Part shown: positions 2,201-11,464 of the stretch, piece after piece
How positions within the stretch are numbered: position 1 is the stretch's first letter
Layout of the letters: every line of letters begins with the position of its first letter
Source of the DNA: Nitrospinae bacterium RIFCSPLOWO2_12_FULL_45_22
GTDB taxonomy: Bacteria; 2-12-FULL-45-22
Reading direction: 5' to 3'
NCBI GenBank assembly: GCA_001803565.1
Contig: MHDQ01000147.1
Coordinates: forward strand, 1-12,857
DNA: 12,857 nt
Translations under genes and position numbers: made by a program
Notes under the pieces: model-generated
Database searches by the model: none
Told to the model about the DNA's origin: nothing
What the model saw: the letters and a program-made list of their open reading frames with translations, nothing else

Positions 2201-4330
2201 ATGATTCATAACCCAATCTCAGAGTCGCTAGCATTACCCAAAAGACTGCAGGGTACCGATGGGGTTCGGGGGGTAGCCTGCCCCGCTGATCATCCTTCTG
2301 TCGCTGGGCTCACACCAGTAGATGCCTTTCTCAAAAAAGGAATACTGACCGAAGAGTTTGTTGAACTGTACTGCTTTTGCTATGTAAAGTTACTGGAGCA
2401 AGAGTCGGTCTGGCAGCCTGGTCAGGAGATCGTTATTGGTTGGGACCCAAGAGATGACCAGGGTATCTATCATCAGGCGGCTATTAGAGGTGTCTGTAAG
2501 GCCGGCGCAAAGGCGGTAGCAATAGGGATATTGCCTACCCCGGCAGTACCGCTCTACTTGCTTCATCAAGAGGCCAGAGGGGGTATAATGATTACTGCCT
2601 CCCATAACCCGCCGGACCAGAATGGGATCAAGCTATTCAGTAAGACCCTGGGCTTAAAGCCACTGCCAGCCGATGATCAGCAGCTAACCTCCTTAATATA
2701 CCAAACCCCCTACTGGCAAGCCTATCAGTGTCCCTTAGAAGGATCTTATGAAGATGGGCATGATCAAGCCCTTGGAGTCTTCCTGAAATTCTTTGAGATT
2801 TCCAGCAATACCTGGCTAGAAAAAAAAGACCTCCTGCGCCACCTGATACTGATTATAGACCCCGCATATGGTTGCTGTCGAGGGTTGGCTAGTAAGGTCT
2901 TTAATCAATTAGGGGTAAAAGAGGTTATTGAGGTAAATAATGATCCTCGAGGACAGGTGAATGTAAACTCTGGTGTAGCTGGCTTAGAAGGGGCCAGAGA
3001 AATAGATAGCCAGTTACAGAGCGATTCTGGTCATATTTTTCAAGATTACAAGGTTGTCCAGACTATGTTTGAGATAGGCAGAAAATACCATGATAGTATT
3101 ATCCGGGGCAATATATGGGTAGCCGGAGCAGTCTTCGATGCCGATGGAGATCGGTTTTACCGGTTAGATTATGACCCACTCAGGGATAGGATCATAATCT
3201 TATCGGGTGATGAGATTGCCTATCATCAAGCGAAATACTTGATAAACCGCTTCCCGAAAGAATTATTAGGCGCCCCTTATGTGAATACAGTTGAGAGCGA
3301 CCTGAACTCCTCTCTGGCTGCCGCTGAGTTGGGCTACTGTCCAATAATCGAAGCCGTGGGTGACAAATGGCTCCTGGTACAGGGCGCTCTCAACTGGTTA
3401 GAGGCACGGTTGGACCATGATGGTAAAAAACACCTGGGAGAGCTGAAGCAGAAAGGGGTTTCTGCTATAGCTGAGATCGAAGACCTCTTTAGAAGTTCAA
3501 AGTCCAAAGCTCAAAGTTCAAAGTCTAAAGATCAAACCCCTGCTCTATGCCGCTATGAACCAGAGAGTTATCCAACTGGCCAAAGATTTAGGATAATTAA
3601 GGGCTACAGCATAGGCAGTGAAACCTCGGGCCATACCATAACCCCGGGGTTGCTTAATACCAATGCAGATATTACCATACCCGTATTTATTGGTAATGCC
3701 CTGAAGAGTGCGGTCAATACCTTTGTCGCTACTGAATCCCTTTATCACCGCTCAGATATTGCCAGGTATATTGATCAAGTTCATATGCCTTTCCCGCGCG
3801 GTTTTCAAAAATCCCTCCCGGTATATTATACCGATAAAACCAGGTTTTATAATGGCTCTCCCCTCTGGCACCAATTAGAAGCAACCATAAAAGAAGACAG
3901 GTCAGGCTTATGGGTAAAAAGGGTATACCCCCAGGAACGGGATATGTTATACTTAACCTTTAATGATCACGAAGGAGGACAGAAAGGAGCCCTCTTTATC
4001 CGTAATTCCGGCACTGAAGATAAGACTGTGGTCAATCTGAGGGGTTCCAGGAAAGACGGTGACAAGTTGTTGGCCGTGGGCCAGACCGTTCTAAAGTTGC
4101 TCTTCCAAGATCTTAAAGACCAAAACCATAACTATGCCCAGGCCGAAACACAAATCTTAAAGACCTTGACCGAAAGGGGGCCCTGCACCCCAGATGATCT
4201 GCTATCTTTGGTTCCCGGAATTAACTGGGACCGGCTCTTTAACGAACTAAGTAAACAAAGATTAATAGAATATAGGGATGGTCGGGTTTGCTTAACTTCT
4301 CTGGGCTCCTGGTATATCAAAAAAAGCTAA
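2201..4330 (+). CDS. Long phosphohexomutase-like protein with C-terminal winged-helix-like extension
   Basis: A 709-aa member of the phosphohexomutase superfamily, about 250 aa longer than the usual 440-470. Conserved sites in order: GTDGVRG (18-24), TASHNP (132-137, phosphoserine Ser134), DADGDR (313-318, metal loop), SETSGH (473-478, sugar loop) and RNSGTEDK (601-608, phosphate loop). The additional length comes from insertions before the metal loop (about 258-305), a stretch of about 80 residues before the sugar loop (about 390-470), and a tail after about 645. The tail looks like a small winged helix (TERGPCTPDDLLSLV, then a basic helix and YRDGRVCLTSLG). The insertion at 432-445 (SSKSKAQ SSKSKDQ) is encoded by a DNA repeat. 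With glmS upstream and a GlmU-C-like acetyltransferase downstream, an atypical glucosamine mutase role is attractive but inferred. The ATG at 2201 has only a weak AGAAG at 2186-2190; an upstream in-frame stop at 2144-2146 limits extension. Confidence 0.88.
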   Translation: MIHNPISESLALPKRLQGTDGVRGVACPADHPSVAGLTPVDAFLKKGILTEEFVELYCFCYVKLLEQESVWQPGQEIVIGWDPRDDQGIYHQAAIRGVCKAGAKAVAIGILPTPAVPLYLLHQEARGGIMITASHNPPDQNGIKLFSKTLGLKPLPADDQQLTSLIYQTPYWQAYQCPLEGSYEDGHDQALGVFLKFFEISSNTWLEKKDLLRHLILIIDPAYGCCRGLASKVFNQLGVKEVIEVNNDPRGQVNVNSGVAGLEGAREIDSQLQSDSGHIFQDYKVVQTMFEIGRKYHDSIIRGNIWVAGAVFDADGDRFYRLDYDPLRDRIIILSGDEIAYHQAKYLINRFPKELLGAPYVNTVESDLNSSLAAAELGYCPIIEAVGDKWLLVQGALNWLEARLDHDGKKHLGELKQKGVSAIAEIEDLFRSSKSKAQSSKSKDQTPALCRYEPESYPTGQRFRIIKGYSIGSETSGHTITPGLLNTNADITIPVFIGNALKSAVNTFVATESLYHRSDIARYIDQVHMPFPRGFQKSLPVYYTDKTRFYNGSPLWHQLEATIKEDRSGLWVKRVYPQERDMLYLTFNDHEGGQKGALFIRNSGTEDKTVVNLRGSRKDGDKLLAVGQTVLKLLFQDLKDQNHNYAQAETQILKTLTERGPCTPDDLLSLVPGINWDRLFNELSKQRLIEYRDGRVCLTSLGSWYIKKS
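3494..3535 (+). repeat. Two tandem 21-bp units inside the 709-aa mutase gene
   Basis: Units 3494-3514 and 3515-3535 match at 19 of 21 positions. Each begins AGTTCAAAGTC and encodes SSKSKAQ or SSKSKDQ. The low-complexity Ser/Lys composition contrasts with the surrounding enzyme sequence. The unit length is a multiple of three, so the reading frame is kept. It resembles the GTTCAAAGTCCAAAG-type repeats I have seen in intergenic DNA of candidate phyla, which suggests invasion of a permissive surface loop. That similarity is recollection, not a search. Confidence 0.8.
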
Positions 4331-4393
4331 AAGTGAAAAACGCAAAGTGAAAAGCTGGGAAATAATTACTTAGTTTTGCGCCTTTCGCTTTAA
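4329..4393. repeat. Imperfect inverted repeat after the long mutase gene
   Basis: AAAGTGAAAAACGCAAAG (around 4329-4347) and TTTTGCGCCTTTCGCTTT (4373-4390) are imperfect reverse complements, about 14 of 18 positions. The structure starts right at the mutase stop. It could form a stem near the transcript end, but no U-tract follows, so a terminator call is weak. The right arm contains CTTAGTTTTGCGC (4369-4381), which recurs exactly at 10610-10622 in the gap after hppA. The two gaps therefore share a dispersed repeat family. Confidence 0.55.
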
Positions 4394-4447
4394 GCGTTGC
4401 GTCTCTACAGTTATGAATAATTCTTGATAAAACCTAAGCCGGCATAA

Positions 4448-6411: not shown

Positions 6412-6440
6412 TGGGAAAAGATTTGACCTTCCTTAAACTT

Positions 6441-6477
6441 AACCACGAATGACACGAAGTAACGAATTACACGAATA
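6441..6477 (+). repeat. Short-period CACGAA repeat in the cstA leader
   Basis: The stretch consists of near-copies of CACGAATGA / CACGAAGTA / ACGAATTA / CACGAAT, about nine bases apart. It ends 13 bp before the cstA ATG. It is non-coding and belongs to the general class of short-period repeats seen elsewhere in this window (compare 11254-11279). It occupies the region where the ribosome-binding site of cstA would be expected. Confidence 0.65.
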
Positions 6478-6490
6478 GCTCTTATCCCTG

Positions 6491-10502: not shown

Positions 10503-10519
10503 GGGGTAGACCAGGAGTG

Positions 10520-10635
10520 TAAAGCTAAGAAATAAGGCGTAAATCGTAAGGAGTGAGGGGTAAGGAGGCTCCCCTTTACGCTCTCACGATTCACTCCTTA
10601 CGCTCTAACCTTAGTTTTGCGCTTTAATCTTTGGC
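10520..10635. repeat. Inverted-repeat element between convergent genes
   Basis: CGTAAGGAGTGA (10545-10556) is the exact reverse complement of TCACTCCTTACG (10591-10602), giving a 12-bp stem. The interior contains further GCGTAA/TTACGC and AGGGG/CCCCT pairings. The outer segments AAAGCTAAG (left) and CTTAGTTTTGCGCTTT (right) are also partly complementary. CTTAGTTTTGCGC (10610-10622) is shared with 4369-4381. Lying between hppA (+) and the - strand gene ending at 10645, a stem readable from both strands could stop both transcripts. No T tract accompanies it, so it is listed as a repeat rather than a terminator. Confidence 0.65.
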
Positions 10636-11154: not shown

Positions 11155-11204
11155 ACACAAAATTTTCTGTAATAGTTTAGCCAAATAAAGTATCCCGAAG
11201 ACAT

Positions 11205-11223
11205 GCCACGGATAAACACAGAT
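11205..11223 (+). repeat. Left arm of the CACGGAT family inverted repeat
   Basis: GCCACGGATAAACACAGAT pairs with the segment at 11399-11417 at 18 of 19 positions. Extending right to 11233, the arm shows a ten-base period (CACGGATAAA / CACAGATGAG / CACGGAT), so it is a short quasi-tandem array and not a random sequence. Confidence 0.75.
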
Positions 11224-11398
11224 GAGCACGGATCCCTCAGTTAACCTTTCTCTGCCACGAAGGCACCAAGGCGCTAAGGTTCAAAGACTAGTAAGCCGTA
11301 AGTAGTGAGGAGTGAGCCGATAGCTGGTAACTACTTACTGCTTGCTCCTCACTCTTCACGGGTTGCTCCTTAGTGACTTAGTGGCCTAATCTCTGCTT

Positions 11399-11417
11399 AT
11401 CTGTGTTCATCCGTGGC
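11399..11417 (-). repeat. Right arm of the CACGGAT family inverted repeat
   Basis: ATCTGTGTTCATCCGTGGC is the near-exact reverse complement of 11205-11223, with one mismatch. The two arms are about 175 bp apart and enclose two more opposed repeat families. Confidence 0.75.
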
Positions 11418-11464
11418 TAAAATCCTAATCTTGGCTAAACAGTTACAAAATTTTCTATGTCTTG

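Follow-up and report, generated by a model that had tools for sequence, protein, structure and literature searches.

A putative IS66-type MITE with nested palindromic repeats downstream of a porin gene in a Nitrospinae bacterium

Anatomy of the element

The window, that is, the whole stretch of 12,857 bp that was analyzed (contig MHDQ01000147.1 of Nitrospinae bacterium RIFCSPLOWO2_12_FULL_45_22), harbors a 278-bp element at 11169-11446 that lies 18 bp past the stop codon of a porin gene. Its ends are GTAATAGTTTAGCC and GGCTAAACAGTTAC (GTAA...TTAC). The first-pass annotation had described terminal inverted repeats with a 14/16 match that enclose nested opposed layers (CACGGAT, a nine-base-period family, and a core), and all of them were verified in place in the sequence (Table 1). 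The CACGAAGG/CACCAAGG layer sits between the CACGGAT layer and the GTGAGGAGTGAG core. A single strand of the element is predicted to fold into one long concentric hairpin, with z = -9.0 under RNA parameters and z = -7.7 under DNA parameters, and no shuffle equals either fold. No ORF of at least 80 amino acids lies inside 11169-11446, so a transposase gene is absent, and the length stays below about 600 bp.

Table 1. Features of the composite element and its flanks, in window positions
Feature	Position	Strand	Remarks
Whole composite MITE	11169..11446	+	278 bp, GTAA...TTAC
Direct repeat AAAATTTTCT, left copy	11159..11168	.	target-site duplication, 10 bp here
Direct repeat AAAATTTTCT, right copy	11447..11456	.	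target-site duplication
Left terminal inverted repeat GTAATAGTTTAGCCAA	11169..11184	+	IS66-type
Right terminal inverted repeat GTAACTGTTTAGCCAA (read on the - strand)	11431..11446	-	14/16 vs left repeat
Layer B, left arm	11205..11233	+	CACGGAT, ten-base period
Layer B, right arm	11389..11417	-	
Layer C, left arm	11255..11279	+	CACGAAGG/CACCAAGG, nine-base period
Layer C, right arm CCTTAGTGACTTAGTGGCC	11368..11386	-	
Core cassette E, left arm (GTGAGGAGTGAG)	11290..11317	+	slot holds cassette D or nothing in other copies
Core cassette E, right arm	11340..11367	-	

Copies in this and other genomes

The lack of a second copy had been named beforehand as evidence against a mobile element, and a search for further copies had been proposed. 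A 300-base query gave 48 BLAST matches in the source genome. These copies uphold two earlier suggestions, a composite non-autonomous element and palindromic cassettes inserted into one another. The terminal repeat TAAYNGTTTAGCCAAA occurs there at 140 sites when up to two mismatches are allowed, compared with 17 for the reversed control, and the 54 elements that were delimited are 49-347 bp long. A second set of MITEs that end in GTAACCGTTCA[CG]CC occupies 70 sites (control, 0).

Without mismatches, TAAYNGTTTAGCCAAA is found only in the source genome among 386; of the 385 comparison genomes, a single one belongs to the same order and all others are related at the domain level only. The strict 22-base terminal repeat occurs as lone ends in two MAGs, one named Nitrospinota and the other Nitrospirae, and no full shell element was seen in the scan of these named genomes. 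Within the reach of these searches, the shell is confined to this lineage. Beside a shell end in the public MAG contig CAJVYE010000170.1 (L099, about 100-155), an Illumina adapter sequence is present. No unoccupied orthologous site was seen among the relatives, which are too distant: in the sole genome of the same order the best match is 31% identical, and no porin gene lies within about 1.5 kb beside any homologue.

Target-site duplication

An exact 8-bp direct repeat directly abuts 7 of the 19 strict-ended copies of the shell, and 9 of the 19 match in at least seven of eight positions; a clear duplication is absent in the other 10. None of 20,000 mispaired shuffles reached 9/19, and no other duplication length stands out. 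Examples are CTTTATAC (L010), AAAATGAA (L024), CCCGATTC (L059), and GAATAACC (L063), and further exact 8-bp duplications flank L026, L036, L088, and L091. In the second set, 8 of 17 elements have exact 8-bp duplications, one of which is a run of T. The duplicated sites are about 70% AT.

The window copy is an outlier, with a direct repeat AAAATTTTCT of 10 bp where the family has 8 bp. Compared at exactly 8 bp, its flanks match in only 5/8 positions; they require a duplication of 10 bp or, alternatively, a slip of 2 bp within the A/T run. The 12-mer ACAAAATTTTCT, reported earlier as an exact direct repeat, is indeed present at 11157-11168 and 11445-11456, and its interpretation as a target-site duplication holds for the duplication itself but not for the 12-bp length. 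The latter reading was dropped: because the family ends are GTAA...TTAC, the "AC" at 11445-11446 is the right end of the element itself. The inverted self-match of the 12-mer, given as 8/12, is 10/12 by direct inspection, so that the flank by itself is indecisive; the direct-repeat reading is decided by the family-wide duplication. Given the many copies, the terminal inverted repeats, the short length without a transposase, and the target-site duplication, the element is a MITE.

The placement and fold of the element could also point to a fixed functional structure that is not mobile, with the 3′ end of the porin gene marked by a structured RNA or a transcription terminator. The fold is very stable and close to the porin stop codon, and the other copies, too, sit near gene ends, with no ORF interrupted by the 10 copies with long flanks (a small sample). 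However, no Rfam family scored above the curated threshold, the element holds no terminator-like site by consensus, and copies lie at unrelated loci next to 8-bp duplications of their own, which makes this explanation very unlikely. The element may still have a secondary role as a terminator.

IS66-type ends

Plasmid-annotated IS66 transposases were taken together with their flanks, and the ends were searched without an assumed sequence. Five of the six records have inverted ends starting with GTAA (GTAAY..) next to exact 8-bp duplications; the ends are GTAACTATTCAGCC, GTAATCGTTTAGCCCC, GTAACTATTCAGCCC, GTAACCGTTCACAGG, and GTAACCGTTTAGCCCCCC. The IS66 of Thiodictyon combines the end GTAACCGTTTAGCCCCCC with the exact 8-bp duplication CGCCGGCC, and that of Methylotuvimicrobium the end GTAATCGTTTAGCCCCC with GTCGAGCT. 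Published 8-bp repeats are tabulated for the IS66-family elements ISPpa5a and ISPpa7 (PMC3281130). In the unrelated genome G048, an IS66 with the ends GTAACYATTCAGGGG shows exact duplications at three copies. The window ends differ from the Thiodictyon end at 1 or 2 of 14 positions. Because IS66 elements share GTAAY.. ends and exact 8-bp duplications, the outer shell, with its IS66-like ends (GTAAY..TTYA..) and the 8-bp duplication of its family, is classed from its sequence as an IS66-type MITE. Thus, the transposase family that the first-pass annotation had proposed to look for was identified from the ends as IS66.

Several IS families generate 8-bp duplications, and the genome's own 85%-complete assembly yielded no intact IS66 transposase. 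Both points would suit ends derived from another such family and a coincidental match to IS66. This is extremely improbable, as the IS66 ends of Thiodictyon (GTAACCGTTTAGCC) and Methylotuvimicrobium (GTAATCGTTTAGCC) agree with those of the window copy in all but 1-2 of 14 positions and both elements have exact 8-bp duplications.

The single IS66 transposase gene found in this assembly is truncated, and GTAACCGTTCACCC precedes its start by about 133 bp. It encodes a zf-IS66 domain and the beginning of the DDE domain, then passes into an HD-domain protein next to a gap in the assembly, and is devoid of the catalytic C-terminal part. A run of N (L057, 2207-2215) in this chimeric IS66-transposase/HD-domain ORF is flanked on either side by an identical 27-base sequence and is a scaffold join that duplicates sequence. 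A candidate for a complete IS66 of 2,036 bp with both ends in contig C275 was rejected, since the supposed right end is part of a separate MITE, which has a duplication of its own (AAGAAAGA); the reading also fails on the truncated transposase and the HD-domain gene fusion next to the N run.

Nested cassettes

The interior of the shell (A) varies between copies in an ordered manner. Tokenized by repeat type, the 54 elements show a nested layer order that is nearly always concentric, and short empty shells leave little off-centre room for insertions. The orders A-B-C-D (L009, L010), A-B-D (L022, L024), A-B-F (L020, L023, L026, L036), A-C, A-B-C, and others were seen, along with the empty shell (L040, 49 bp); the window copy is A-B-C-E. 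In aligned copies, the slot within layer C is either empty or occupied by D or E. Short hairpins are also found off centre (L013, L044, L169).

Insertions can be followed in L164, L167, L171, and L169, which are nearly identical apart from hairpins. A central 27-bp hairpin CCTGCCTGTGCGGTGCACGCAGACAGG is present in L167, L171, and L169 and missing from L164, and an additional 19-bp hairpin in one arm of L169 is a clean insertion; neither has a target duplication. In L165, part of one arm is replaced by a different hairpin, and L009 has an extra outer inverted layer (GACATTCAAGAGGTTTTTAT...) that surrounds the shell. The hairpin insertions and this outer layer indicate that the shell can gain layers internally and, in at least one case, externally.

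Layer B has a wider distribution than the shell. Its triple CACGGAT unit was detected in 6 of 78 genomes, with 71 occurrences in G049 and none in the control. In G049 the CACGGAT palindromes surround a different core (CCCTCTCCC...GGGAGAGGG) and are devoid of an IS66 shell. The inner CACGGAT layer is therefore a widespread repeat type that also occurs in unrelated bacteria; a literature search for the CACGGAT word returned no paper. At L143, L149, L153, and L157 of G049, the palindromes with the CCCTCTCCC/GGGAGAGGG core form tandem arrays of about 172 bp.

Elsewhere in the window, inner cassettes also occur singly or one within another. Cassette D (an AAAGTG/GCAAAG palindrome) stands alone at 4325-4405, where it overlaps the stop codon of a 709-aa ORF, and cassette E (GTAAGGAGTGAG) is nested in a D-type palindrome at 10515-10632 between convergent genes.

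Such layers might instead have arisen by inverted duplication or by a template switch during replication, with the palindrome of a MITE growing from its centre rather than receiving cassettes. The near-universal concentricity would fit this, as would arms made of degenerate tandem short-period units, which slippage yields, and hairpins inserted without target duplication. Growth from the centre is nevertheless rather unlikely: individual cassette types are found on their own or within different shells, D lies directly in B in L022 and L024 and F in B in L023, L026, and L036, and layer B exists without the shell in other genomes. In addition, arms of the same side are 74% and 72% alike across copies, compared with 68% for the two arms within one element. 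As a left arm is closer to its counterparts in other copies (74%) than to the right arm of its own element (68%), copying of one arm from the other is not pronounced, although the difference is small. The values are consistent with copying of the filled element as a unit, with the same small margin.

A different weighting of the same data places mobility in the interior. The inner short-period palindromes (CACGGAT, CACNAAGG, AAAGC, GTGAGGAG, and CCTGYCTG) would then be widespread mobile hairpin cassettes that enter palindrome tips without duplication by an undescribed mechanism, and the IS66 shell would only carry and amplify them. The shared slot, the two clean duplication-free insertions, and the CACGGAT layer of an unrelated genome, which encloses another core, speak for this proposal, to which we assign a low probability.

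Proposed origin

Very probably, the 278-bp stretch is a non-autonomous IS66-type MITE whose interior is a cassette slot filled by nested palindromic short-period repeats. Its ends GTAAYNGTTTAGCC would be of the kind recognized by an IS66-family enzyme (single-transposase, ISBst12-like). The shell would transpose through cuts staggered by 8 bp, which would create the target duplication of 8 bp (10 bp for the window copy). Palindromic short-period cassettes would be captured near the centre of the shell, one within another, possibly by tip-targeted insertion or template switching. Subsequently, the filled element would transpose as a unit and give rise to subfamilies with a common shell and different interiors. 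As the genome's own IS66 gene is broken, an IS66 transposase is only inferred as the driver in this cell. The order of events and the mode of cassette entry are likewise inferred.

Relation to known systems

The shell shares the GTAAY..TTYA.CC repeats and the 8-bp duplications with IS66 insertion sequences (single-transposase, ISBst12-like; e.g., ISGst1 and ISGka4), from which the window element differs by the missing transposase, a length of 278 bp against about 1.6 kb, and an interior of palindromic repeats. The Chunjie MITE of Geobacter uraniireducens (178-235 bp) likewise has terminal repeats and direct repeats (PMC10969869). Chunjie-like MITEs are comparable in size, terminal repeats, duplications, and their many intergenic copies of variable size, whereas the elements described here have IS66-type ends and, inside, concentric palindromes that are interchangeable. 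In Streptococcus pneumoniae, the small repeats BOX, RUP, and SPRITE likewise insert into each other (PMC10969869); the present elements are distinguished by a regular order of concentric layers and by inner types common to unrelated bacteria. REP/BIME palindromes are similar as short extragenic hairpins, and the 19-27 bp CCTGYCTG hairpins found here insert without target duplication; in contrast to REP/BIME, the outer shell has long terminal repeats and 8-bp duplications.

In a recent review of prokaryotic MITEs, IS66 has 0 occurrences (PMC10969869), and the elements described here would add it to the families that feed MITEs. The element can be seen as a readable record of small repeats that inserted into each other in a bacterium. 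Because empty and filled versions of the slot coexist at different loci, the insertion mechanism of common, unexplained palindromic repeats becomes accessible to study.

Other repeats in the window

Three further repeats were observed in the window. Another composite at 1967-2145 (TAACAGTACAGTCACCAAGACACTAAG ... GAGCTTGCTC hairpin ... CTTCGTGCCTTAGTGGCTG) lies between two sugar-phosphate mutase genes. At 3493-3534, two 21-bp tandem units AAGTTCAAAGTCCAAAGCTCA are in frame in the 709-aa mutase-like ORF and encode SSKSKAQSSKSKDQ. A lone arm of an ACGAATGACACGAA repeat is located at 6440-6490, just 5′ of a CstA-like gene.
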